Virus record (IMG/VR): IMGVR_UViG_3300008120_000302
Location: 1-32,450 of that record
DNA length: 32,450 nucleotides
Direction: 5' to 3' (one strand)
Source: a virus
Shown one piece after another: positions 4,336-20,097 of the stretch. The notes under the pieces were generated by a model, which was given only the letters and a program-made list of their open reading frames with translations, was not told the origin of the DNA and searched no databases. Position 1 is the first letter of the stretch, and every line of letters begins with the position of its first letter. The position numbers and the translations under genes are program-made.

Positions 4336-4838
4336 TGCTTTCACTGATTTCAACTCTTGGTGGCCTGCTGATTAGCGGCCTTCCTAAGCTGCTGGAGTAC
4401 TTCCAGAACAAAGCGGACCAGCAACATGAACTTGCGCTGGCCCGGATGCAGAACGAACGTGAGTTGGCCTTGGCCGCTCAGGGCTACGCCGCGCAGCAGA
4501 AAATCGAGGAAATCCGCACCGATCAGGTCATGATGCAGACCGAGGCGCAGATGACCGAGGCGGCTCTCAAGCACGATGAGCAGGTTCTGGAGAAGGCCCA
4601 CAAGTGGGTCGCCAGCTACGTTGGTACGGTGCGCCCCACTGTGACGTACATTTTTGTGCTGGAGTTGGTGCTTATCAACGCCTTCATGGCGGTCTACCTG
4701 TGGAACCACCCCACCCTAATCACCAACATCGACGATGTCGTTAAGTACTCCGACCTGATCTTCTCCAGCGACGAAATGGCCATGCTGGGCGGAATCATCG
4801 GCTTTTGGTTTGGCTCGCGGCAGTGGAGCAAAAAGTGA
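4335..4838 (+). CDS. Holin (resembles the 3TM / GTA-type holin family)
   Basis: A 167-residue protein that should sit in the inner membrane and form the lesion through which the endolysin escapes. An N-terminal hydrophobic or amphipathic stretch (residues 3-22) is followed by a charged helical region (25-90), a clear membrane helix (about 101-123, after a conserved-looking RP) and a short hydrophobic segment (147-162, GGIIGFWFGSRQWSKK). Length, order and the FG-S-R-x-W-x-K ending match the family of three-helix holins also found in gene transfer agents. It starts at ATG 4335, overlapping the previous stop, and its end overlaps the endolysin start as GTGA. Confidence 0.75.
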   Translation: MLSLISTLGGLLISGLPKLLEYFQNKADQQHELALARMQNERELALAAQGYAAQQKIEEIRTDQVMMQTEAQMTEAALKHDEQVLEKAHKWVASYVGTVRPTVTYIFVLELVLINAFMAVYLWNHPTLITNIDDVVKYSDLIFSSDEMAMLGGIIGFWFGSRQWSKK

Positions 4839-5350
4839 AGCTGAGCAAGGTCGGCGCTGACTTGATGCACAAGTACGAGGGGTACAGGACTCGCCCGTAC
4901 TTGTGCCCAGCGCACATTTGGACCATTGGCTACGGCCATGTGCTGTACCAAGAGCAGATCAGGCTCCCTATGATGCGGCCAGATGGCAAGACCAAGGCCG
5001 ACATCCCGATGATCCGCAAGGAGATGCCGCTCAAGTTGGAGGACAACCGTGTCTGGACAAAGCAGGAAATTGACAAACTATTCGAAGATGATGTCGCGTC
5101 TTTTGAACGGGGCGTTCTTCGACTTGTTCCCGGCAGTGCTGGCCGTCAAGGCCGCTTTGACGCTCTGGTCAGCATTTCCTTTAATTTCGGGCTAGGCAAC
5201 CTCCAGCGCAGCAGTATCCGCATCAAGGCCAATCGCGGGGAGTGGGAAGCTGCGGCGGATGCCTTCTTGCTTTGGAACAAGGGCGGCGGTAAAGTGTTGC
5301 CGGGGTTAGAGCGCCGCCGCAAGGACGAACGCGCCCTGTTTCTATCGTAG
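4835..5350 (+). CDS. Endolysin, GH24 (T4-type) lysozyme, E-C-T triad
   Basis: A 171-residue muramidase that cleaves the glycan backbone of peptidoglycan at lysis. The catalytic block is YEGYRTRPYLCPAHIWTIGYGH: Glu15, Cys24 and Thr30 have exactly the 9- and 6-residue spacing of Glu11-Asp20-Thr26 in T4 lysozyme. Cys in place of Asp is a known variant of this family. A later SISFNFGLGNL and the final GLERRRKDERALF segment are also typical. I chose GTG 4835 because it overlaps the holin stop (GTGA) and is preceded by GGAG about six bases upstream; the longer TTG start at 4805 lies within the holin. There is no signal peptide, so release should depend on the holin. Confidence 0.9.
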   Translation: MKLSKVGADLMHKYEGYRTRPYLCPAHIWTIGYGHVLYQEQIRLPMMRPDGKTKADIPMIRKEMPLKLEDNRVWTKQEIDKLFEDDVASFERGVLRLVPGSAGRQGRFDALVSISFNFGLGNLQRSSIRIKANRGEWEAAADAFLLWNKGGGKVLPGLERRRKDERALFLS

Positions 5351-5357
5351 GACGACC

Positions 5358-7439
5358 ATGCCACTTCAGAAAATTACTTTCAAGCCCGGGGTCAACCGCG
5401 AAAACACTCGATACACAACCGAAGGAGGGTGGTACGAGTGCGAGAAAGTCCGTTTTCGCCAGGGCAATCCAGAGAGCATCGGGGGGTGGCAACGCATATC
5501 AGCATATACCTATCAAGGCGTGTGCCGCTCTCTCTGGAATTGGGTAACATTAGTAGGCCAAAACCTTTTAGGCGTAGGAACAAATCTCAAGTTCTACATT
5601 GAAGATGGGGGCGCTTATTTTGACATCACCCCAATCCGATCTACCGAGACTTTAGGAGCCAATCCTTTTACTGGCAACGGCACAACAACTGTTACTGTGA
5701 ATGACACTTCTCATGCCGCTACGCTCAACGATTTTGTAACCTTCAGCGGCGTCACAGGCACGTATGCAAGTGTGTTAAATGGGGAGTTTCAGGTTGCTTC
5801 TGTAATTAACTCTAACTCGTACACCATAGTTGTGCCCTCCGTTGTAGCCGTTGGGGCTACGGGAGGAACGACAGTGGTTGCGGCCTATCAGATAAACACA
5901 GGGGCGGCGATTGAGGTTCCGTATGTGGGCTGGGGGGCAGGTGGCTGGGGAACTGGTACATGGGGCGCGGGCATAGGCACTTTGAGCTTGCGCCTTTGGT
6001 CGCAATCCAACTACGGAGAAGATTTGATCTTTGGCCCTCGGGGCGGGGGCATCTACTATTGGGACGCCACCACCGGCATTTCGACTCGCGGAAAAGCGCT
6101 GAACACGCTTGGCGGCACCGTCAGCATCACTGCTGCTTCGCCCGCAGTCGTGACCTCCACGGTGCTGTACACAGAAGGAGCGGCCCTCCAATTTAACTTC
6201 ACTGCTGGTGGCTCACTGCCCACGGGCATTACCGCCAACACGACCTACTTTGCCTTCAATGTCGAAGGACTGACTTTTAACCTGACCGATGCCAACGGCA
6301 ACACAATCAACACCACCGGGTCAGCTTCTGTCAATGCCTATGTGTCCTTGATTGTGGACGTTCCAACGGAGCAGAACGTCATCGTCATCTCTGACACCTC
6401 TCGGTTTATCTTTGCAATGGGCTGCAACGGGTACAACAACGCCGCGTTTGATCCAATGCTGATTCGTTGGTCCGCCCAGGATGATCCGTACAACTGGACG
6501 CCCAACGAAGTAAATCAGGCCGGTGATGTCAGGCTGTCGCATGGATCGGAGATCATTACTGCTGTTCAGACCCGGCAGGAGATTGTGGTGATCACCGACT
6601 CTTCCGTGTATTCTCTGCAGTACCTGGGGCCTCCTTTTGTTTGGGGCTCGCAACCTTTGGCCGACAACATTTCTATTGCAAGCCCAAATGCGGCGGCGCT
6701 GGCATCTGGTGTTATTTACTGGATGGGCATAGACAAGTTCTACTCGTATGATGGTCGGGTGCAGACTCTTAACTGCGACCTGCGCAGGTACGTGTTCAGT
6801 GACTTCAACTACCAGCAAATCCAGCAGGTCTATTGCGGCACCAACGAAGGGTTTAACGAGGTCTGGTGGTTCTACTGCTCCGCGAACAACGCCACAGCAT
6901 CTCCCGATAAGTACGTGGTGTACAACTACTTAGAGCAGGCGTGGTACTACGGCACCTTGTCCCGTACGGCGTGGCTTGATTCTGGCCTGCGTCAGTACCC
7001 GTTGGCTGCGACCCCGAACTACAACATCGTCAATCACGAATTTGGCATCAACGACAACGAAACGGGGACCACGGCGGCAATCAACGCCTACATCTCCTCG
7101 TCGGAGTTTGACATTGGGGACGGCCACAACTTTGGCTTTATCTGGCGTGTCCTGCCTGATTTGACGTTCCAAAATTCCTCAAATTCCCCCACCGGTGTTC
7201 CGCCACAGTTGACCATGACGCTGTACGGGCTGGTCAACTCCGGGTCAGGGGTCACGGACACTGCTTCTCAGGCGGTGGAGAAGGGCAACAACTACGTGAT
7301 CACTGAAGAGTTTACGGGGCAGATTTACACTCGATGCCGTGGCCGACAGTTGATCTTTAGGGTTGGATCTAACCAGATCAACACCGCGTGGCAGCTTGGC
7401 GCTCCGCGTATTGACATCCGCCAAGACGGGAGACGATAA
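5358..7439 (+). CDS. Large beta-rich tail/hub structural protein (P22 gp10-like role, tentative)
   Basis: A 693-residue virion protein starting PLQKITFKPGVNRENTRYTTEGGWYECEKVRFRQG, a recognisable opening of structural proteins in podovirus-like genomes. The central and C-terminal parts (IRWSAQDDPYNWTPN, SEIITAVQTRQEIVVITDSSVY, SGVIYWMGIDKFYSYDG) look like repeated propeller blades, as in P22-type tail accessory or packaged-DNA stabilisation factors. Residues about 105-177 form a beta domain (VNDTSHAATLNDFVTFSG), and residues about 252-330 look like a second inserted Ig-like domain before DVPTEQNVIVISDTSRF. The neighbouring gene begins immediately after its stop. The assignment to a tail hub or stabilisation role is inference; no search was run. 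Confidence 0.65.
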   Translation: MPLQKITFKPGVNRENTRYTTEGGWYECEKVRFRQGNPESIGGWQRISAYTYQGVCRSLWNWVTLVGQNLLGVGTNLKFYIEDGGAYFDITPIRSTETLGANPFTGNGTTTVTVNDTSHAATLNDFVTFSGVTGTYASVLNGEFQVASVINSNSYTIVVPSVVAVGATGGTTVVAAYQINTGAAIEVPYVGWGAGGWGTGTWGAGIGTLSLRLWSQSNYGEDLIFGPRGGGIYYWDATTGISTRGKALNTLGGTVSITAASPAVVTSTVLYTEGAALQFNFTAGGSLPTGITANTTYFAFNVEGLTFNLTDANGNTINTTGSASVNAYVSLIVDVPTEQNVIVISDTSRFIFAMGCNGYNNAAFDPMLIRWSAQDDPYNWTPNEVNQAGDVRLSHGSEIITAVQTRQEIVVITDSSVYSLQYLGPPFVWGSQPLADNISIASPNAAALASGVIYWMGIDKFYSYDGRVQTLNCDLRRYVFSDFNYQQIQQVYCGTNEGFNEVWWFYCSANNATASPDKYVVYNYLEQAWYYGTLSRTAWLDSGLRQYPLAATPNYNIVNHEFGINDNETGTTAAINAYISSSEFDIGDGHNFGFIWRVLPDLTFQNSSNSPTGVPPQLTMTLYGLVNSGSGVTDTASQAVEKGNNYVITEEFTGQIYTRCRGRQLIFRVGSNQINTAWQLGAPRIDIRQDGRR

Positions 7440-8510
7440 ATGACCTTCGTCGTCACGACCAACTACGAGATTGAGAAGGTCGCCGCCCCCAATCTTCCGC
7501 TTGCGCCAGATGAATGGGACAGGCGCTTTCAGGATCAGTATAGCAACGTCCTTCGCCTGTATTTCAACAGGCTGGACAACTTCATGGCGCGACTTATGGC
7601 AAATAACTCCACCCTGCCAGTAACAGGCACCGTCTCGTTGCCGTCAACATACTTGGATGCGTTTGGCCGCCAACGGGTGAGCCAGCCTTACTCCTTGTTC
7701 GACAGCCAAAGCCGTTACGCCGCAGACAATCAGTTCAGCACATCTACGTCTGGTACGGGCACTTCAACGTTTAACACCAATCAGTCCAGCGTCAGTATGG
7801 CCGTCACTGGCGGCGGTGTTGGCTCTGTGGTTCGGCAGTCTTTTCGCAATATGCTGTATCAGCCGGGCAAGGGCCTGTTGGTGTTGGCAACCTTTCAGAT
7901 GGACAACAGCACATCTGCCAATCTTAATCAGAGTGTTGGGTATTTCAATACGCAGAACGGGGTGTTCTTCCGTCGAACCGGTGGTGTGAATGCCTTTGTC
8001 ATGCGTTCAAACACTTCTGGCACTCCAACCGATGCGCGGTTTGCCAATCAAGCGGACTGGAACGGCGACAAACTGGACGGCACTGGCGCTTCCGGGCTGA
8101 CGCTTGACCTGACGCACCCACAGATTCTGTGGATGGACTTTGAATGGCTTGGTGTTGGCTCAGTCCGTTGCGGCTTCATCATCAACGGCCAGTACGTTGT
8201 TTGCCACACATTCAACACCGCCAACGTCTACGGCACCACGGTGTACATGACCACGGCCATCTTGCCTATGCGCTATGAGATCACCACAACGACAGCAGCA
8301 GTTGCCGCCACGCTCACGCAGATTTGCTCGTCGGTAGTGTCCGAGGGGGGCTTTGAGGCTACGTCCATTGAGCACGTTGCCAGACGCACAACGGTGCTTG
8401 GCACCATAAATACCGCAGCCAACTTCCTTCCGGTTGTATCTATTAGGCTGGCATCGACGGCAAAACCCGGTCCTCACGGGCGCGACTTGGGCAGCAACGG
8501 TTCCTTCTGA
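7440..8510 (+). CDS. Phage structural protein, main 5' part before a +1 frameshift
   Basis: ATG 7440 directly follows the stop of the hub-like gene. The N-terminus (residues 14-60, APNLPLAPDEWDRRFQDQYSNVLRLYFNRLDNF) is a helical region typical of proteins encoded after this hub gene in related phages. It is followed by a Gly/Ser/Thr-rich beta region. Natural sequence stops at about residue 342 (VVSIRLASTAK), after which this frame gives an unconvincing 14-residue tail to TGA 8508-8510. The expected continuation lies in the +1 frame (to 8766), giving a joined product of about 441 residues. Structural function, possibly a tail or head-tail component, is inferred from context. Confidence 0.7.
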   Translation: MTFVVTTNYEIEKVAAPNLPLAPDEWDRRFQDQYSNVLRLYFNRLDNFMARLMANNSTLPVTGTVSLPSTYLDAFGRQRVSQPYSLFDSQSRYAADNQFSTSTSGTGTSTFNTNQSSVSMAVTGGGVGSVVRQSFRNMLYQPGKGLLVLATFQMDNSTSANLNQSVGYFNTQNGVFFRRTGGVNAFVMRSNTSGTPTDARFANQADWNGDKLDGTGASGLTLDLTHPQILWMDFEWLGVGSVRCGFIINGQYVVCHTFNTANVYGTTVYMTTAILPMRYEITTTTAAVAATLTQICSSVVSEGGFEATSIEHVARRTTVLGTINTAANFLPVVSIRLASTAKPGPHGRDLGSNGSF

Positions 8511-10993: not shown

Positions 10994-12979
10994 ATGGCAG
11001 AAGTCACAGAACAAATAGTACGCGAGGCGAAGCCTATTGAGGACATGAAGCTCGCGCTGATGCAATCGGCGCAAGCGCTCGGCACACCCACTTTGCCTGC
11101 GTATCAGGTCCAAGACCTGACCAAGGATCAGCTTGATGCCATGGCCCTGGGTCGCCAAGGCATTGGCGCATACCAGCCTTATCTTCAGGGAGGGACCAAA
11201 GCGGTCCAGGCAGGAACAACCGCGCTGGGAGAAGCTGCCGACATCCTTCGTGGCGCCGATACCCGGGGGCAATTTACGGCTGCCCAGAATGCATATAACT
11301 TAGCCGCTCAGCCTGCCGCCGCCCTTGGAAACTTGTCCAATGTCGCAGGCGCAGGCATGGGCTATCTGTCGGGCGCAGGCCAGGATTTTGACTACGCGCA
11401 GCAGATGGCATTGAACGCCTCGCGGGCCAATATTGACCCTGCGCAGATGATGATGCTGAACTCCGTCAATCAGGCGCAGGCAGCAGCACCGCAGTTCAAC
11501 TACGCGCAGCAGATGATTGGCGCGGGGGCAGCGGCAGGTCAGAAAGCGGTCCAAGGAGCCGAAAACCTTTCTCAACAAGGCATCGGAACCCTGTATGGCG
11601 CAGCGGCCCAGGCCCAAAGAGCAGCTTCCAGTTTAGGTTCGGCACCTCGCGTTGAGAACGTCCCGAAGATGGATGCGGCCACAATGCGGACGGCTCAAAT
11701 GGGCCCAGCCGAGAGGGTCACCACTCAAAGTTTTGCGACCCCCGGCTCCGCAGATGCTTTCATGTCCCCGTACATGCAAAGCGTGGTAGAGGCCCAGCAG
11801 CGGGAAGCACGCCGGATATCTGATGTGCAGCAGCAGGTGGAGCAGGCTCAGGCGGCTCGTTCCGGCGCCTTTGGTGGCAGCCGCCAGGGCATTCTTCAGG
11901 CAGAGCGCTCTCGCAACCTTGCTCGTCAGCTTGGTGACATCCAAGCTACTGGGCTGCAGTCTGCATTCCAGCAGGCTCAGCAGCAGTTCAACACCGAGCA
12001 GCAAGCGCGGCTCGCGGCCCAACAGGCAAATCAACAGGCAGGTCTCACGGTCGGCGCTCAAAACCTGTCGGCAGAGCAGCAGGCCAATGTGAATAACCAA
12101 GCTGCTGAGATGCAGGCAAGGGGCATGAATGCTCAACAGGCGATGCAGACTGCATTGGCCAATCAGCAGACGGCGGCTCAGTACGGCATTCAAGGCGCTC
12201 AGCTTGGGCTGCAGGGCGCGGAAGCTTTGCGGCAGGCCGGTATTGGCACGTTGAGCGCTGCTGGTCAGCAGGGCCAGCTTGGCCTACAAGGCGCCAGCCA
12301 ACTTGGTCAGGCGGGTGGGCAACTGGGTGGTTTGGAAGGCCAACGTGCTGCTCAGGCTTTTCAGGCTGCTCAGTATGGTGGAAACATCGCTCAACAGTTG
12401 GCCAGCCAGGAGATGCAGCAGGCCCAGCTTGGTCAGGGAGCCGCGAACCTCTATGGCAGTTTGGCGGGCCAGCAGGCCGGTCTTGCAGGGCAGACGGCGA
12501 ACATTGCAGGGCAGCAGGCCAATATCCTTGGCCAGCAGTCTCAATTGCAACAGCAACTGGGCCAGGGTATTGGCAATCTGGCCGCTCAGCAGTTCGGCGT
12601 GGGCCAAAACATGGCAGCGGGCCTCGGAGCGCTTGGGACGCAGGCGGCAAATGCAGGCATACAACAAGCCCAGCTTGGCCAAGCCGCTCAGAGCATGGGC
12701 CAACAAGATGTCTCTGCCCTGTCTGCCATCGGTGCTCAAGAGCAGAAGCAGGGTCAGGCAGAACTCGATGCGCTGCGGGCATCCAAAATGCAGGAAGTCA
12801 TGCAGCCATATCAGAAGCTTGCTTTTGTGTCGGACATCTACAAGGGGGCGCCATCTACGCAGATGGCGGTCACCCAGCAGCAGACTCCTGCCCCCAGTGC
12901 ATTTCAACAAATCGCAGGCTTGGGCACCGGCATTTTGGGTACTGCCGCCGCCGCGAACGCCGCGAGCAAGCTCTTCTAA
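10994..12979 (+). CDS. Gln/Ala/Gly-rich internal virion-type protein 2 (661 aa)
   Basis: A helical protein very rich in Gln, Ala and Gly. It has a recognisable central motif (about residues 255-330, FMSPYMQSVVEAQQREARRISD then ARSGAFGGSRQGILQAERSRNLARQLGDIQ) found in large virion proteins of related phages. The region from about 340 to 575 is made of imperfect GQQA/LGLQGA-type repeats. The C-terminus (MQEVMQPYQKLAFVSDIYKGAP) is another conserved-looking block. GGGGA stands six bases before ATG 10994. It lies between two other giant late proteins, and co-assembly as an internal core or DNA-ejection complex is inferred. Long open frames on the opposite strand here are composition shadows. Confidence 0.65.
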   Translation: MAEVTEQIVREAKPIEDMKLALMQSAQALGTPTLPAYQVQDLTKDQLDAMALGRQGIGAYQPYLQGGTKAVQAGTTALGEAADILRGADTRGQFTAAQNAYNLAAQPAAALGNLSNVAGAGMGYLSGAGQDFDYAQQMALNASRANIDPAQMMMLNSVNQAQAAAPQFNYAQQMIGAGAAAGQKAVQGAENLSQQGIGTLYGAAAQAQRAASSLGSAPRVENVPKMDAATMRTAQMGPAERVTTQSFATPGSADAFMSPYMQSVVEAQQREARRISDVQQQVEQAQAARSGAFGGSRQGILQAERSRNLARQLGDIQATGLQSAFQQAQQQFNTEQQARLAAQQANQQAGLTVGAQNLSAEQQANVNNQAAEMQARGMNAQQAMQTALANQQTAAQYGIQGAQLGLQGAEALRQAGIGTLSAAGQQGQLGLQGASQLGQAGGQLGGLEGQRAAQAFQAAQYGGNIAQQLASQEMQQAQLGQGAANLYGSLAGQQAGLAGQTANIAGQQANILGQQSQLQQQLGQGIGNLAAQQFGVGQNMAAGLGALGTQAANAGIQQAQLGQAAQSMGQQDVSALSAIGAQEQKQGQAELDALRASKMQEVMQPYQKLAFVSDIYKGAPSTQMAVTQQQTPAPSAFQQIAGLGTGILGTAAAANAASKLF

Positions 12980-12988
12980 GGAAACGCC

Positions 12989-15367
12989 ATGAAGGAAGAA
13001 ATCCTCAAACGCGCCATGTTCGCGATGCCCCTGTCCAAGGATGCCCGCAACACGGGCATCCTCTCCGGGTTTGAAGACGAGATGGACGAGGCTCCTGATC
13101 CCTCCGAAGAGATGCCGCAGATGGCCAGGAATCCGCAGAATCCTGAAATCCTGATGAACACGATGCGGGGCGACATGCGCTCCGTTGATGCGCGGTACAT
13201 GGAACTGGCTCAGATGGTTGGTGAAGAAGCAGCCATGGAAACGCCCCCTGAGGTGTTGGCCATGCTTCAGACTCAGTTCTCTCAGCAAGGCGGCATTGGC
13301 GGGCTGCCACAGGCACAGGAGATGGCACCGCCGCCCATGGCTCAAGGACCCGGCGGCATGCCTCCAGGCCCCGGGATGCCTCCAGGCCCTGAAATGGCCA
13401 TGCCCCCGGGCATGGCGGGTGCTCCCCCTTTCCCTGAGGGCGGGGCTGAACAAGCTCCGCCCACCCCAGATGGGCTGCCCCCGCTCAAGGCTTTTGGCGG
13501 GGCGTTTGTCACTCCGTTCACCCGGATGGCGCAGATCGCCGGAAACAGGATTGGCCCGATGGCGACTCAGGCAAACGCGGCGGCGGGTCGCCTGATGTCG
13601 CAAGGGTTTCCGCAGACATTCCGGCCCATCTTCGAAAACGTCCGTGGCGAAGGCGGGCGTTTCACGGCGGAACAACTGCTCAAGTACCCAACCCTGACCC
13701 AGCACTTGTCCAAAATGGCAGGCCCTCGGTTGACGGGCATGGCCCAACGGGCAGAATCGCTTGTGGCACCTGCGGTTGCTACCGGAGCAGGCGTTCTTGC
13801 CGCCTCTGGGCTGTACCAAACCGCCACGGCACCTGCCGTTGACCCCGAGCGTCAGGCCCTGCTGAAGCAGTACGAGGACATGTACTACAAGGTCACGGAT
13901 CGCAGCGTCCCGATGCCTTCTTTGGGCAGTGCGACGAACGATCAACTCAAGCAGGCCATTCAGGTAATGGCCGCTCAGGCTGCCCCTGCGGAGGGCGCTG
14001 GAACCACTGTCGATACAGGGGCCGCTTCAACGGGCACAGCAGCCGGGGCACCGCCGGTCACAGCGGCGCCCGAGGGTGGCCCGGGCGCTGCGCAAGACAA
14101 CACGGCCTTTATCCAGACCCAGTTGGCCAAGCCAAATGTGGGGGCGGGCACCACAGGTACTCCTGTGTCTCGCATTGAGCGGATCAAGCAGGCAAGGGAG
14201 GAGTACGCACCGCTGTACAGAGAACTTTTGGGCGATGGCAAGGAGGAGATGTACACCAACGCCATGCTGATGCTGGCCGATGCTGGCTTCAAGTATGCCG
14301 CTGCACCCGCCAAGTCAGGCACCACTCCTCTATCGCTGTTGGCTCAGGCCGCGCAGGGCATCCCGCAGGGCTTTATGGCTCTTATGGCCCAGGCTAAGGA
14401 TCGTCAACTCAAGATCGATACGGCAGCGCTTGGCCAAGCAATCACCGATGTCCAAGAGCAAGACAAGTATGCCCAGCGGCTCAAGGAAGTCATGCTCAGG
14501 GGCGATTACGACCTGCTCAAGGAGCAGATCAGGAAAACCGGGGACATCCAAGAGGATGGCGGGGCAGGGCTGATTCGTACAAAAACAAAGAGTGGCAGCT
14601 TTGTCGGTACGTCAATCGATCCAAACAACCCAACTGTGCAGTCCGCAGTCCAAAGCCGTTATACCCTGCGTGACACGGATAACCCCTTTGTCGTCAACCG
14701 TGGCCAAGCCCCCACTACGATTGAAGAGGACAAGGATCAGCGCATTAAGCTGACCACTACGCTTCGCTCGCTGGACAACAGCCTGTCTATGCTTGACAGT
14801 CTCAAAGGCTTGTATTCCCAGGCATACGGTCCGGGCGCATGGTTCCAAGACAAGGTCAACAACCTTTTGGTGCCTATCAGCCCAACCGCAGTGGTCAGAC
14901 CAAATCTTGATCTTGCCGATGCCGCTATGCGGATCAGCAGCGGCATGGGGCAGCTGAGTAAAGCCATTGCCTCCGCGAACGATGGAGGCCGAGTCGCTGT
15001 GCAAGAGCAGGAGTGGGTTCGTGAGACTGCCAAAGGAATCAGTGACCCCACTAAGTTTTTCTCCGATAAAGAAGTCGTCGCTAAACAGTTGAACTCTCAG
15101 GAGGCCATGCTGCGAAACGCTCGCCAGCAGGTCTTGACGCAGCTTGGCTACGAGAAGAACGACTACGTGATGAACACGCCCAGCACCGGCACACAGTCCG
15201 ACCCGTTCATCATTCCTACCAACCCTGAGCAGCAAAAGCGGATGTTCAACTTCCTTGGCAGTACGATTGGCAAGATCCAAGACCCACGGGCCACGGTCTA
15301 TGTGCGTATGCCCAACAACACCATCCAGGCATTCAATCCGACTCAACTCAGAGGGCTGACTCAGTAA
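12989..15367 (+). CDS. Large virion-type protein 3 (792 aa), proline-rich linker
   Basis: Residues 45-95 (NPQNPEILMNTMRGDMRSVDARYMELAQMVGEEAAMETPPEVLAMLQ) form a recognisable helical block of large virion proteins in podovirus-like phages. A Met/Pro/Gly-rich low-complexity linker follows (about 110-170), then helical segments and an Ala/Pro-rich region near 330-365. The C-terminal half is helical and lacks enzyme motifs. The start at 12989 follows AAGGAAACGCC. The stop overlaps the next start as TAATG, so it is coupled to the 1137-residue protein. A role in the internal core or in DNA delivery is inferred from size, order and composition. Confidence 0.65.
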   Translation: MKEEILKRAMFAMPLSKDARNTGILSGFEDEMDEAPDPSEEMPQMARNPQNPEILMNTMRGDMRSVDARYMELAQMVGEEAAMETPPEVLAMLQTQFSQQGGIGGLPQAQEMAPPPMAQGPGGMPPGPGMPPGPEMAMPPGMAGAPPFPEGGAEQAPPTPDGLPPLKAFGGAFVTPFTRMAQIAGNRIGPMATQANAAAGRLMSQGFPQTFRPIFENVRGEGGRFTAEQLLKYPTLTQHLSKMAGPRLTGMAQRAESLVAPAVATGAGVLAASGLYQTATAPAVDPERQALLKQYEDMYYKVTDRSVPMPSLGSATNDQLKQAIQVMAAQAAPAEGAGTTVDTGAASTGTAAGAPPVTAAPEGGPGAAQDNTAFIQTQLAKPNVGAGTTGTPVSRIERIKQAREEYAPLYRELLGDGKEEMYTNAMLMLADAGFKYAAAPAKSGTTPLSLLAQAAQGIPQGFMALMAQAKDRQLKIDTAALGQAITDVQEQDKYAQRLKEVMLRGDYDLLKEQIRKTGDIQEDGGAGLIRTKTKSGSFVGTSIDPNNPTVQSAVQSRYTLRDTDNPFVVNRGQAPTTIEEDKDQRIKLTTTLRSLDNSLSMLDSLKGLYSQAYGPGAWFQDKVNNLLVPISPTAVVRPNLDLADAAMRISSGMGQLSKAIASANDGGRVAVQEQEWVRETAKGISDPTKFFSDKEVVAKQLNSQEAMLRNARQQVLTQLGYEKNDYVMNTPSTGTQSDPFIIPTNPEQQKRMFNFLGSTIGKIQDPRATVYVRMPNNTIQAFNPTQLRGLTQ

Positions 15368-18300
15368 TGGCAACGATCCTCAACACTCAGGGGCAGTTGG
15401 TTGATCTGACAACCGGAGAGGTTGTTGGCCGCGCCGAGGGCGCCCCGACTGCCGTTAATCCTCTCAAGGCAGGGGCCCCTGAGCAAGTCACAGAGGGTGC
15501 GGACAAAGTCAAAGGGCTGATCAACAACGCCTCTTGGGGCTTCAACTCGGCCCTGTTCTCCTTGCCCGATGCTGCTCAGCGGATCATTGGCAAAGGCCTG
15601 GGCCTCAATGAGGATCAGGTCTTTCAGTTCGCCAAGTTCTTCAATCGCGGTGAGGTAGCGCCCAAGAACTCTGGTGAGCGCTACGCCCGTGCGATTGCAG
15701 GGGGCGTTGCTGGTGGCCTGCCCTTCACCGGCATCCTGGGGGCCTCTGCTGCCTTGCGTCCTGCAATCGCTGCTGCCACCCCTGCTACAACGGTGATGCG
15801 GGGGGTGACCAAGGATGCGATGGACATGATCGCAAGGAGCCCAAAGAGCGCCCTGGCCATGGATGTGGCCTTTGGTGCTGGTTGGGAGGGGCTGCGTCAG
15901 GCCGTTGAAGAGAATGTGTCCGATGACCAGCCATCGAAGGTCTGGCTCAAGGAACTGCTGCCGACAGCCGCGTTTGTGGGCGTTCCCCTGGCCCTGTCTG
16001 GCGGCTTCTCAGCGGCCAGCAAGCTGGCCAACATGAGCCCCACGGTCCAGGGCGCACGGTTTGTGAAGGGCCAGCTTGGCGCTCCCGATTTGGGTGACGT
16101 AGAAAAGGATGTGCTGTCCTCGGCCCCAGGCTTCTGGAAGCTGCCTGTGGTCAAGGTAGTCCCTAACATGCTGATCAAAAACGCCGAGCGCAAGCTGTCT
16201 CAGGTGTTTGGTCCGATTGCCGAGAGCAAGGAAGCACAAGAGGCGTTGAAGGCCCTCGAAGTGGCCTTGGCCGACCCTCGTTTCGCGCAGGCAGGTTTCG
16301 TGTTTGATGCTGCTGAGAAGACGATGTACACGCCCCTGGTGCAGGAAAAGCTCAAGCTCTTGCAGCAGCTTGGGCCCAAGGATCTGGAGTCGGTCAAAGA
16401 GCGCATCAATCAGAACCAGACCGCCCTCAGTAGCCTGTTCAGCAATCTTGCTCCGCAGGCCCGTCAGCCTGTAATGGATGCCTTCCAAGCGGCCCAGGCT
16501 GATCGTCAAGCGTTCTTTGAGAACCTGCTGCGCCAGAAGAAGGACATGACGGAGGCGGAGATTCTTGCGGTGTCCGAGCGCCTCGGACCACAGAACATCG
16601 ACATGCTCAATGATGAGCTTCGCGGTGTGATCAAAAGTAGCATGGAGATGGACAACAAGATGCGGCAGAACGTCCTGTCTCGCATCGGCCTGAAGCAGGC
16701 CACTGCCCCTGACGGAACTGCGCTGCCCACTCGGGAACAGGGCAAGTCCTTGTTTGAGTCTCGGGACATGGAGGGAGCAGCGCTGTCGCTGATCTCCAAG
16801 TACAGCCCAGAGCGCCCGTCGATGCGAATGGCCATGCCCGAGCCTGTGCGGTTGATCGACAACTTTGTGCAGGGCCAGATTCGTCAGCGTGAGCGGCTTG
16901 AGCGCACATCACTCCAAAGCCTGACTGACGATGCAATTGACAGCCAGATTTCTACCATGGGCGAGGCGTTTAAGGACCCTGCGATCCTCAAAGCGCTGCG
17001 CTCTTCGGTGCATGCTCTTGTTCGTGGTGATAAGCCCAAGGGCGGGCGCCGCGCTCCGGGGCTCGCGGAACTTGCGCCTTCCCCCGATGCACAGGGAAAC
17101 ATCTCTATCCCGGCGCTGATCCCTGGTCGCAAGATCGTGATCAATCCACAGCAGATCCGTGAGGACGCTGCCCGGATTGCAGAGGCCAACACCAAGATTG
17201 ACATCAACATACCGGAGGCACTGGACTACCTGACCGCCGCCCAACGGTTCCGCAATGATGCCCTGACATCCTATAACGCGGCCATGAAAAATGGCCGTGT
17301 GCGCCAGACCGATGCGCAGCGCATTCTGGACACGGGCAATGCCGTGTTCAGGGATGTTGAAAACCTTATTCTTACCAACACGCCACGGCTTAAGGGCGAG
17401 TACGAAGCGCTGAAGGTCATGATCGATGACTACAAGCAGGTGTATGACCGGAGTCTGCCGCTGCTCATGACGCAGACTAAGAAGGGGGGCATGGAGTACC
17501 TGCTGCCCAACGAAGACCTGATGCGAAACGCCTTCAAGACGGCGGAGAACCTGCGCGATGTTTCCGTGATCTTGGGCAACGATCCACAGTCCCAGAAGCT
17601 GCTGCTCAACGGCACTGTTGATTGGCTGCGAACCAAGGGCGTGGTCAACGACAGCGGGGTTGTTGATCCGAAGAAGATTCGTAGTGTCTTGGACAAGAAC
17701 CGAAACATCGTTGAAGCGCTGCCAGAGACCATCAGGGTCAAGCTCAACGACGAAGTCGCGCTGGCCGACGACTACGTCAAGCGCCTGGGCGAGATTGACA
17801 AGCGCGTGGTCGCTGCCCAGGACAACGAGCTTGATCGCCTGCTGGGCAAAGCTATCCGCCCGGAGGCCGATGCCCGCATGATCTTGTCGGATGCGCTGCG
17901 CGATCCGGCGGTCATGCGCAAGTTGGTGGACGTTGTCGGCAAGGACCCAGAGATGCTGTCTTCTCTGCGCCGGTCCGTGTATGACATAGCTACAGAAGGG
18001 GCACAGGGCGGCGGAGCCCTGAAGTCGTTCCTTGACGGCAATGAGAAGTCGCTCAAAGTCCTGTTCGATGGGACCACCCACCTTCAAGACCTTAAGACCT
18101 TGGCTGACCTGCAGCGCAGGGTCAATGCTTTTGCAAGCGTTACGGGCCAGATCCCTGCCTTTGAGTCGCTCGATCAATCGCTCAAGCGCGTCTTCGGCTT
18201 CGGCATCCAGTTCGGCACGACCACGCTGCGTGAAGCGATGGTGGGCCGCATCTCTCCCGAGACGGGCGCCTTGGCCCTGATGGTCCGGATGACCGGCAGC

Positions 18301-18780
18301 TTGGAAAACGAGTTGTACAAGCGCCTGTTCACCAAGGCCCTGGAGAGCGAAGAGTTTGCCAAGAGCATCACCCACATTGGCACTGCCAAGGAGGGCGAGC
18401 GTGCCCTCAAAAACCTGCAGGAGATCGGTGTTTCCAAAGGCATGGCCCTCGGCCCTTCTGCCGTGACAGAGGCCGCACGCCGGGGCATCCAGCAAAAGGC
18501 CACCGAGACGGCACAGCAGGGCCAAGAGGCTCCTGTCGCAGGGATGGAGGGGTTGCCTATTGTTCCCCGTGAAACAGCCTCCTCGATGCTGCGTAATCTG
18601 CCTCCTGCACCGCCCACAAGGGGCGTGAGCTTCAACCCTCGCTTGCCCACACGGCCTCCGGCGCCGCAAGGAGGCGGGTCAAGTCAGGTGCCCCTGATGT
18701 ATCCCGCCATGTTCCCCAACGATCCGATCAGTGGCTTGCTTCAGCAACGACAGGCCGCGATCCAAGGACCACAGCAATAA
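15367..18780 (+). CDS. Giant virion-type protein 4 (1137 aa), likely DNA-ejection component
   Basis: The longest gene in the window and the last of the four giant late genes. The first 240 residues contain hydrophobic Gly/Ala segments (for example residues 115-140 and 195-215) that could be membrane-active. Residues 260-1000 are overwhelmingly helical and charged, as in the large core proteins of T7-like phages. The tail is Pro-rich and ends with VPLMYPAMFPNDPISGLLQQRQ, a recognisable ending of this protein class. I see no transglycosylase or protease active-site motif. It overlaps the previous stop (TAATG) with GAGGG upstream. Function is inferred from order and size. Confidence 0.65.
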   Translation: MATILNTQGQLVDLTTGEVVGRAEGAPTAVNPLKAGAPEQVTEGADKVKGLINNASWGFNSALFSLPDAAQRIIGKGLGLNEDQVFQFAKFFNRGEVAPKNSGERYARAIAGGVAGGLPFTGILGASAALRPAIAAATPATTVMRGVTKDAMDMIARSPKSALAMDVAFGAGWEGLRQAVEENVSDDQPSKVWLKELLPTAAFVGVPLALSGGFSAASKLANMSPTVQGARFVKGQLGAPDLGDVEKDVLSSAPGFWKLPVVKVVPNMLIKNAERKLSQVFGPIAESKEAQEALKALEVALADPRFAQAGFVFDAAEKTMYTPLVQEKLKLLQQLGPKDLESVKERINQNQTALSSLFSNLAPQARQPVMDAFQAAQADRQAFFENLLRQKKDMTEAEILAVSERLGPQNIDMLNDELRGVIKSSMEMDNKMRQNVLSRIGLKQATAPDGTALPTREQGKSLFESRDMEGAALSLISKYSPERPSMRMAMPEPVRLIDNFVQGQIRQRERLERTSLQSLTDDAIDSQISTMGEAFKDPAILKALRSSVHALVRGDKPKGGRRAPGLAELAPSPDAQGNISIPALIPGRKIVINPQQIREDAARIAEANTKIDINIPEALDYLTAAQRFRNDALTSYNAAMKNGRVRQTDAQRILDTGNAVFRDVENLILTNTPRLKGEYEALKVMIDDYKQVYDRSLPLLMTQTKKGGMEYLLPNEDLMRNAFKTAENLRDVSVILGNDPQSQKLLLNGTVDWLRTKGVVNDSGVVDPKKIRSVLDKNRNIVEALPETIRVKLNDEVALADDYVKRLGEIDKRVVAAQDNELDRLLGKAIRPEADARMILSDALRDPAVMRKLVDVVGKDPEMLSSLRRSVYDIATEGAQGGGALKSFLDGNEKSLKVLFDGTTHLQDLKTLADLQRRVNAFASVTGQIPAFESLDQSLKRVFGFGIQFGTTTLREAMVGRISPETGALALMVRMTGSLENELYKRLFTKALESEEFAKSITHIGTAKEGERALKNLQEIGVSKGMALGPSAVTEAARRGIQQKATETAQQGQEAPVAGMEGLPIVPRETASSMLRNLPPAPPTRGVSFNPRLPTRPPAPQGGGSSQVPLMYPAMFPNDPISGLLQQRQAAIQGPQQ

Positions 18781-18791
18781 CGGAGTAAATC

Positions 18792-19166
18792 ATGGAGATG
18801 GTCGGACGATTGATCGGCACGATGTTCCTGGCCCGGGAGTACGCTCACCGGGCCCACTTGCGTGTCACAGGCGCAGGCAGCTTTTCCAAGCACTCCGCTT
18901 TGGGCGAGTTCTACACATCCATCATTGATCAGGCCGATGCGATCACTGAGGCGTATCAGGGGCGACACGACACCATCATCGAAATCCCCTATCTGCCGAT
19001 GATTGATGAAGAGGACCCGGCCAAGGCTCTTGAGAGCCTGATGGACGACATCGAGAAGCTGCGCTATGACGCAGTGGACAAGAAAGACACCCCGATTCAA
19101 AATCTTATTGACGGGGCAGTTGAGACCTTCCTGAGCACCCTCTACAAACTTCGAAAGCTGAGGTAA
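18792..19166 (+). CDS. Dps-like mini-ferritin (ferroxidase-type four-helix protein)
   Basis: A 124-residue helical protein. His22, His34, Asp49 and Glu53 reproduce exactly the spacing (12, 15 and 4) of the Dps ferroxidase ligands His51, His63, Asp78 and Glu82 of E. coli Dps. The surrounding pattern HLRVTGAGSFSKHSALGEFY also parallels the Dps HWNVRG...H segment. Helices are expected at about 2-24, 33-58, 77-97 and 101-122, a ferritin-like bundle, but it is shorter than usual Dps (about 160). Dps proteins oxidise Fe(II) and can coat DNA; either activity here is inference. It is the second-last gene of the late operon, with GGAG before ATG 18792. Similar small proteins in phages are mostly labelled hypothetical. 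Confidence 0.65.
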   Translation: MEMVGRLIGTMFLAREYAHRAHLRVTGAGSFSKHSALGEFYTSIIDQADAITEAYQGRHDTIIEIPYLPMIDEEDPAKALESLMDDIEKLRYDAVDKKDTPIQNLIDGAVETFLSTLYKLRKLR

Positions 19167-19168
19167 TT

Positions 19169-19333
19169 ATGATGAAAAAACCAGTGTGGGATAAAGCACG
19201 GCCCAAGGACCTTGGGCCTCCGGAGAAGTTGAGTTCAGGTAAAAAAGCCGCTGCAAAAGCAGCGGCCAAGAAGGCGGGGCGTCCGTACCCTAACCTGATC
19301 GACAACATGCGTGCCGCAAAAGGCAAAAAGTAA
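19169..19333 (+). CDS. Small basic conserved phage protein (54 aa)
   Basis: A 54-residue, Lys/Ala-rich protein reading MMKKPVWDKARPKDLGPPEK, then a KKAAAKAAAKKAGRPYPNLIDNM segment and a Lys-rich end. The GRPYPNLIDNMRAAK block resembles a small protein often found at the end of late operons in podovirus-like phages. The stop of the mini-ferritin gene is only two bases upstream, so it is co-translated. The strong positive charge would allow nucleic-acid binding, but no function is established. The second ATG (19172) could also be the start. Confidence 0.7.
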   Translation: MMKKPVWDKARPKDLGPPEKLSSGKKAAAKAAAKKAGRPYPNLIDNMRAAKGKK

Positions 19334-19359: not shown

Positions 19360-20097
19360 TCAGGAGGCTTCTCCACCTCCACCGATGGCACTTTGGCCAG
19401 GAGCTTCTTGCTCCTGGCCTCTTTTTTGGTACTGCTCCACGCGGCGCCACCACTGATCCTTGTAGCCGTCGAACTCCCGGCCAGCGGTGACGAACTCCTG
19501 CGGCTCGCCACCCTGGCTCATCATCATGATCACCCCCTGATCAATGCTGGTCCCATGCACCTTGTCATGGGCCACGGCATACGCCGCCAGTTGCAGGAAG
19601 TAGTCCTCGATCCACTCGCGCCGCTTGGGCTTGTTGGTCTGCTTGAAGTCCATGATGCTGGGCTTCTTCTTGTAGATGCCAACGCAATCTGAAGTACCTG
19701 CGTAGGTGTTGGGGACGTACAGCGATACCTCCGCGCCCCAGACCTCATCGACATGCGGGAAGAAGTGCTCGATAAGTTGATGGCCCATGCGGTAGCCCTT
19801 GACATGCAGCCATGTGCGGGGCACCTCCAGAGGGCGATTGAGCAGCAGCCGCTCTATGACGTTGTGCATGTGCGTGCCCACGGTGGCCGAATCGTTGCGG
19901 ATGCGCTCTGCTTCGTCTTTGCCCACGCGGTCTTCCCAGTCCTTGAGGTGACTCTTGTCCTTCGTCGCATCAAGGATGGTGGTCACTGACGGCATGGGGA
20001 TGTCATCCATGTCGGCCCGATAAACACGGCCCGAGGACCTGTCCAAACGCTCCAATCGCTTGTAGACGTACTTGCTGCGAAACGGCACCAGCATCAT
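19360..20097 (-). CDS. PD-(D/E)XK nuclease, RecB/Cas4-like exonuclease family
   Basis: A 245-residue nuclease. The motifs in order are GTHMHNVIE (His78), Glu123 in EVSLYV, Asp137 in GTSDCVG, DFKQTNK (Asp150, Lys152) and the QLAAY helix (Gln169). Together these are the full active-site set of RecB/Cas4-type PD-(D/E)XK enzymes, which use divalent metal to cut DNA. The start ATG overlaps the stop of the helicase gene (ATGA) with AAGGAG upstream, so the two are coupled and probably act together in DNA end processing or recombination. The last about 20 residues (from KRGQEQEAPGQ) are encoded by the terminator hairpin of the opposing operon and are probably not functionally constrained as protein. 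Confidence 0.85.
   Translation of the reverse strand: MMLVPFRSKYVYKRLERLDRSSGRVYRADMDDIPMPSVTTILDATKDKSHLKDWEDRVGKDEAERIRNDSATVGTHMHNVIERLLLNRPLEVPRTWLHVKGYRMGHQLIEHFFPHVDEVWGAEVSLYVPNTYAGTSDCVGIYKKKPSIMDFKQTNKPKRREWIEDYFLQLAAYAVAHDKVHGTSIDQGVIMMMSQGGEPQEFVTAGREFDGYKDQWWRRVEQYQKRGQEQEAPGQSAIGGGGEAS
19395..19427 (+). terminator. Rho-independent terminator of the late operon
   Basis: A perfect 10-bp GC-rich stem (GGCCAGGAGC / GCTCCTGGCC) with a five-base loop TTCTT is followed by TCTTTTTT. It acts on + strand transcripts and lies about 60 bases after the last late gene, inside the antisense coding end of the nuclease gene. There is no U-run in the other direction. Confidence 0.9.

Follow-up and report, generated by a model that had tools for sequence, protein, structure and literature searches.

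A predicted Dps-like mini-ferritin from the DUF5856 phage family, encoded near the end of a late gene run

The viral DNA analysed here (positions 1 to 32,450 of IMG/VR record IMGVR_UViG_3300008120_000302; this whole stretch of 32,450 nucleotides is referred to as the window) encodes a 124-residue protein of the phage family DUF5856, with the predicted four-helix fold of Dps and four of the five canonical Dps ferroxidase ligands in register. We read this protein as a late-made, probably virion-associated, compact Dps-like mini-ferritin with an inter-subunit di-metal site, and put the probability of that reading at roughly 0.62. A preliminary description of the same DNA, made from the letters alone, had proposed a Dps-like mini-ferritin carrying His22, His34, Asp49 and Glu53 at spacings of 12/15/4; the length, the residues and the spacing are confirmed in the sequence, and the proposed likeness to Dps is borne out by structure prediction and comparison. 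The gene starts 11 bases after the stop codon of the preceding ORF, and against its closest relatives dN/dS is approximately 0.04, with synonymous change far exceeding amino-acid change. The features discussed below are collected in Table 1.

Table 1. Features of the window in the vicinity of the mini-ferritin gene and within it
Feature	Position	Strand	Remarks
Endolysin gene	4817-5350		13 kb upstream of the mini-ferritin gene
Two virion structural genes, phrog_3287 and phrog_1645 (head and packaging)	5358..8510	+	same co-directional run
1137-aa mostly helical protein, function unassigned	15367..18780	+	upstream neighbor; virion role suggested by position only
Shine-Dalgarno-like GGAG	18782..18785	+	6 bases 5' of the ATG; from sequence
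Dps-like mini-ferritin gene, DUF5856 / PHROG 858	18792..19166	+	ATG-to-TAA ORF, 124 codons
His19 codon	18846..18848	+	at the E. coli Dps Lys48 position; invariant
His22 codon	18855..18857	+	aligned with E. coli Dps His51; invariant
His34 codon	18891..18893	+	aligned with E. coli Dps His63; invariant
Gly38 codon	18903..18905	+	at the fifth canonical ligand, Asp67 (absent here)
Asp49 codon	18936..18938	+	aligned with E. coli Dps Asp78; invariant
Glu53 codon	18948..18950	+	aligned with E. coli Dps Glu82; invariant
54-aa Lys/Arg/Ala-rich protein, phrog_34011	19169..19333	+	last gene of the run; directly 3' of the mini-ferritin gene
Intrinsic terminator hairpin	19395..19419	+	10 bp stem then TCTTTTTT; closes the gene run; -26.1 kcal/mol, z -5.7

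Membership of an under-studied phage family

Profile searches place the protein in DUF5856 (PF19174; E=4.8e-13, 50.4 bits against a curated cut-off of 34.6) and in PHROG 858 (E=3.2e-18), which bears the label "starvation-inducible transcriptional regulator". The same searches give no match to the ferritin family PF00210, either in this protein up to E=10 or elsewhere in the window. T4 rI.-1 (MobD.6) is also a DUF5856 member (E=5e-33 by profile), and the likeness of the window protein to this family consists of a nearly full-length profile match and of the residues H19, H22, H34, D49, E53 and D107, which are invariant. Relatives are numerous among phages: with the window protein as tblastn query, a permissive limit gave matches in 573 phage records and a limit of E 0.01 in 521, and T4 rI.-1 as query matched 1,403. 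Among 84,980 host genomes, only six loci fit our search patterns, two of which lay on contigs from named isolates; such a pattern search is insensitive, and the scarcity of host relatives is consistent with a phage family. A gene 87% identical to that of the window lies on JAURFH010000016.1, a contig assigned to a Verrucomicrobiota genome bin, which is probably a mis-binned phage contig or a prophage. The window protein is a further member of a known, under-studied phage family, and not a new kind of system.

Predicted fold and register with Dps

With 34 relatives in the alignment, AlphaFold2 predicts four helices (residues 3-24, 31-58, 76-94 and 100-122) with a pLDDT of 95.9 and a pTM of 0.89, in agreement with the all-helical protein described previously. 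H22 ends helix A, H34 starts helix B, and D49 and E53 lie towards the end of helix B, which is the arrangement seen in Dps; the crossover between helices B and C (residues 58 to 76) has no helix in the model, unlike Dps, where a short helix is found. When the model was compared with the PDB by Foldseek, Dps or Dps-like proteins filled the best 50 ranks, each at a probability of 1.00 and with TM-scores, normalised by query length, of 0.63-0.78; the E-values across those ranks are modest (0.0066 to 0.13), as is expected for a short four-helix bundle. In a viral structure library, uncharacterised phage proteins rank top, and several proteins named Dps come after them. The matches at ranks 20, 26, 27 and 30 in that library are Dps-like folds embedded in long phage proteins that bear the names prohead protease or ParB/sulfiredoxin; these might be capsid-targeted Dps fusions.

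The register of the metal ligands was examined with a profile of nine cellular Dps proteins, comprising E. coli Dps and eight sequences fetched via PF00210 and picked for carrying the Dps motif. This profile aligns without gaps to residues 18-54 (E=1.1e-6, single target), placing His51, His63, Asp78 and Glu82 of Dps on the corresponding four residues of the window protein, and G27 aligns with the conserved Gly of the Dps AB loop. E. coli Dps alone and H. pylori NapA, which share the four-helix fold, give the same register, and profile-profile comparison with Dps gives E=6.4e-6 at a probability of 85%. A single-sequence search of the PDB returned noise only, with a few Dps entries, and a search with the sequence profile gave weak matches mixed with coiled coils, which we used for register only. 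These weak PDB sequence E-values, together with the absence of a PF00210 match, are what could be said for the notion that the protein is not ferritin-like at all and that the motif has arisen by coincidence in a helical phage protein. We regard this as barely credible: predicted fold, register and invariance are all concordant, and the notion was already disfavored.

A conserved site with four of five canonical ligands

Translating the entire window in six frames yields the exact H22/H34/D49/E53 pattern once, and when the protein was shuffled 200,000 times it arose in 109 cases (approximately 5e-4). The motif by itself is therefore unlikely yet not decisive, and conservation provides a stronger test. 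Across a non-redundant set of 97 IMG/VR relatives, H19, H22, H34, D49 and E53 are constant; one search pattern partly favors H34 in this set, but not the other columns. A second set of 30 diverse members, taking in T4-like, Caulobacter, jumbo and freshwater phages and reaching down to 24% identity (T4), has H19, H22, S30, H34, D49, E53, D107, Y118 and L120 invariant. The four proposed ligands are thus conserved in both sets, and the window protein is predicted to form a four-helix bundle; a different fold, or homologs lacking the ligands, had been named as outcomes that would count against a mini-ferritin, and neither was seen. The 12/15/4 spacing had been called identical to that of E. coli Dps, which is true of the window protein, although the His-His spacing is 12 in only 37 of the 97 relatives and 9 in the remaining 60; in the sequences compared, a spacing of 12 is a subfamily trait.

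The ligand set had also been called complete, which is too strong. The canonical Dps ferroxidase site has five ligands, His51, His63, Asp67, Asp78 and Glu82 (PMC6675082), and in the window protein Asp67 is replaced by Gly38. At the Asp67-equivalent position the 97 relatives have Gly (56), Asn (23), Gln (16), Ala (1) or Glu (1). T4-type members differ from the window subfamily in having Asp or Glu here, four residues after H34, and it is the window subfamily that keeps the Dps-like AB loop (His-His spacing of 12, VTG). In E. coli Dps, Lys48 and Asp67 of one chain and Asp78 of the other form a second iron site (PMC9140674); the residue at the Lys48 position is His in three of the nine cellular Dps proteins and invariably His (H19) in the DUF5856 members compared. 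Because Asp67 has become Gly, most relatives have a His-His spacing of 9, a basic tail is lacking and PF00210 is unmatched, the protein should be classified as a Dps-like DUF5856 member, not as a Dps proper; it also differs from Dps in its length (124 residues versus 167) and, as noted, in the B-C crossover.

The missing fifth ligand and the invariant H19 could also mean that a metal (Fe, Zn or Mn) bound within the Dps fold locks the dimer, with little or no iron oxidation, and that the protein acts in assembly, ejection or on a partner. The location of relatives beside portal or capsid genes, and the detection of two members in virions, would suit such a structural or regulatory role. Nevertheless, we consider it unlikely, as the four ferroxidase ligands are invariant family-wide despite differing neighborhoods (the T4 rI operon, jumbo phages), and altered Dps sites can bind iron, as documented for Nostoc Dps4 (PMC6675082).

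Genomic context

The mini-ferritin gene lies in a late, co-directional run that ends at an intrinsic terminator and that also contains head and packaging genes (Table 1) and, on the same strand, a gene for a 719-aa protein with weak tape-measure similarity. Directly before the mini-ferritin gene, the run encodes large proteins of 661, 792 and 1137 aa (10994-18780), none of which has a PHROG match; their position suggests that they are virion or ejection proteins. For the 1137-aa protein, 13 relatives were likewise without a PHROG match, a PDB search gave no match, and the AlphaFold2 pLDDT is 52. The short basic protein encoded after the mini-ferritin could be a DNA-binding or partner protein, and its homolog lies downstream of the mini-ferritin gene in 11 of 88 related loci. 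Beyond the terminator, exonuclease and helicase genes run in the opposite direction; the hairpin itself falls within the exonuclease ORF (19360-20097, minus strand), at its 3' end.

This position at the end of the virion genes had been described as unusual, an impression that the relatives correct. Across 96 related loci, the upstream gene is a homolog of the 1137-aa protein in 38 and a portal protein in 28 (phrog_156, E=1.5e-122 for a representative); the remaining upstream neighbors include tail-fibre genes and a glycosyltransferase. In two complete freshwater phage genomes the family gene directly follows the portal gene, and in one relative it adjoins a protease-capsid fusion. Since portal genes or homologs of the 1137-aa protein precede the gene in related loci, a late location within a virion module is typical for the podovirus-like branch, whereas T4-type members are located in the rI operon and not among virion genes.

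The rI operon raises the possibility of a cytosolic late or stress role, in which the protein would buffer iron and peroxide or modulate lysis timing and its presence in virions would be carry-over. Overexpression of T4 rI.-1 slightly delayed the collapse of lysis inhibition (Golec et al. 2010, as reviewed in PMC6832632), and Dps proteins reported in gut phages have been proposed to help anaerobic hosts tolerate reactive oxygen and oxidative stress (PMC8008677). Against this, the window and the portal-linked families carry the gene within virion genes and far from lysis genes, the window endolysin lying 13 kb off. We judge such a cytosolic role somewhat unlikely.

A direct role in DNA protection, by coating and compacting or shielding phage DNA in the manner of E. 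coli Dps, is suggested by Dps homology, and database labels such as 'DNA binding protein' and the basic 54-aa neighbor (19169-19333) speak in its favor. Basic-tail DNA binding is the E. coli type and is not universal in Dps. The window protein has no basic N-terminal tail, helix A beginning at residue 3 in the model, and is acidic, with a predicted pI of 5.1 and a net charge of -6 (family median pI 5.5). As E. coli Dps binds DNA through its Lys-rich N-terminal tail (PMC6150300), direct binding is without sequence support in this protein, and we consider DNA coating very improbable.

Relatives detected in purified virions

Published work lends support to the idea of packaging, as two members of the family have been detected in purified virions. 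The first is gp217 of the Salmonella phage Sajous1 (Kuttervirus), detected with 10 spectra in CsCl-purified virions and identified by Phyre2 as 'ferritin' (PMC10892097). In our searches gp217 matches PF19174 (E=1.3e-28) and is 31% identical to the window protein. Its gene is the last in a run of four virion-detected genes (PMC10892097), a likeness to the arrangement in the window, and Sajous1 differs in being a myovirus of 157 kb. Its authors proposed a 'ferrojan horse' role in entry; the plating of Vi01-like phages on tonB/feoB host mutants was not clearly altered, and no dependence was supported (PMC10892097). The second comes from the Klebsiella phages ValerieMcCarty03 and ValerieMcCarty04, whose gp108 and gp100 gave 26 and 27 PSMs, respectively, in purified virions (PMC13119998). 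ValerieMcCarty03 gp108 (Jiaodavirus) matches PF19174 with E=5.2e-34; its gene differs in having the T4-type order, adjoining a lysis-inhibition gene. The spectral counts of these DUF5856 members are low and may reflect contamination, a caution that the authors of both studies themselves give for low counts (PMC10892097; PMC13119998).

Mass spectrometry has also detected Dps-domain proteins in other phages, namely CDS67 of vB_EcoP_SU10 (PMC4281155) and QIN94861 of Privateer, the latter with purified virions (PMC7881722). These proteins, like the gut-phage Dps, are alike in their Dps annotation; SU10 CDS67 differs in being placed among middle genes.

Proposed mechanism and implications

In the mini-ferritin reading that we prefer, subunits would pair about a two-fold axis, as in Dps, and H22 and H34 of one chain (with H19 nearby) would combine with D49 and E53 of the partner to form two inter-subunit di-metal sites. 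Dps itself is a hollow shell of 12 subunits. Its metal sites are located where two subunits meet on the two-fold axis, one chain contributing His and the next Glu82 and Asp78 (PMC9140674); we infer a similarly shared site here because of the ligand register and because H34 and D49 lie 15 residues apart on one helix. At these sites Fe2+ would be bound and then oxidised, with H2O2 or O2 as the oxidant. The protein would be produced late, alongside the virion genes, and would probably end in or on the particle, where it may keep iron and peroxide off the phage DNA, or it may act in the collapsing cell. Against this mini-ferritin reading stand the unmatched PF00210, the Gly at the Asp67 position, the modest Foldseek E-values and weak sequence-profile matches in the PDB, the low spectral counts in virions, the lack of a clear change in plating on tonB/feoB mutants, and the location of T4 rI.-1 outside the virion genes.

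We advance only tentatively, and think rather unlikely, a broader reading in which DUF5856, T4 rI.-1 included, is a phage-specific class of mini-ferritins packaged as virion cargo. Its ferroxidase site would be its own, with His at the Lys48 position and Asp67 dispensable, and many tailed phages would inject or carry a cage that handles iron and peroxide. Such a class agrees with the location of the gene beside portal or capsid genes, with the detection of two members in virions by mass spectrometry and with the fold matches within proteins named prohead protease. T4 rI.-1 (NC_000866 58819-59205) lends itself to iron assays in the laboratory, because it has the same His/His/Asp/Glu set together with an acidic residue at the Asp67 position.

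These data give concrete, testable chemistry to a Pfam family of unknown function found in T4 and in more than 1,400 phage genome records. If both the iron-oxidising site and its carriage as virion cargo are true, tailed phages would commonly carry a shield against oxidative damage, and the old T4 gene rI.-1 would gain a testable biochemical role.
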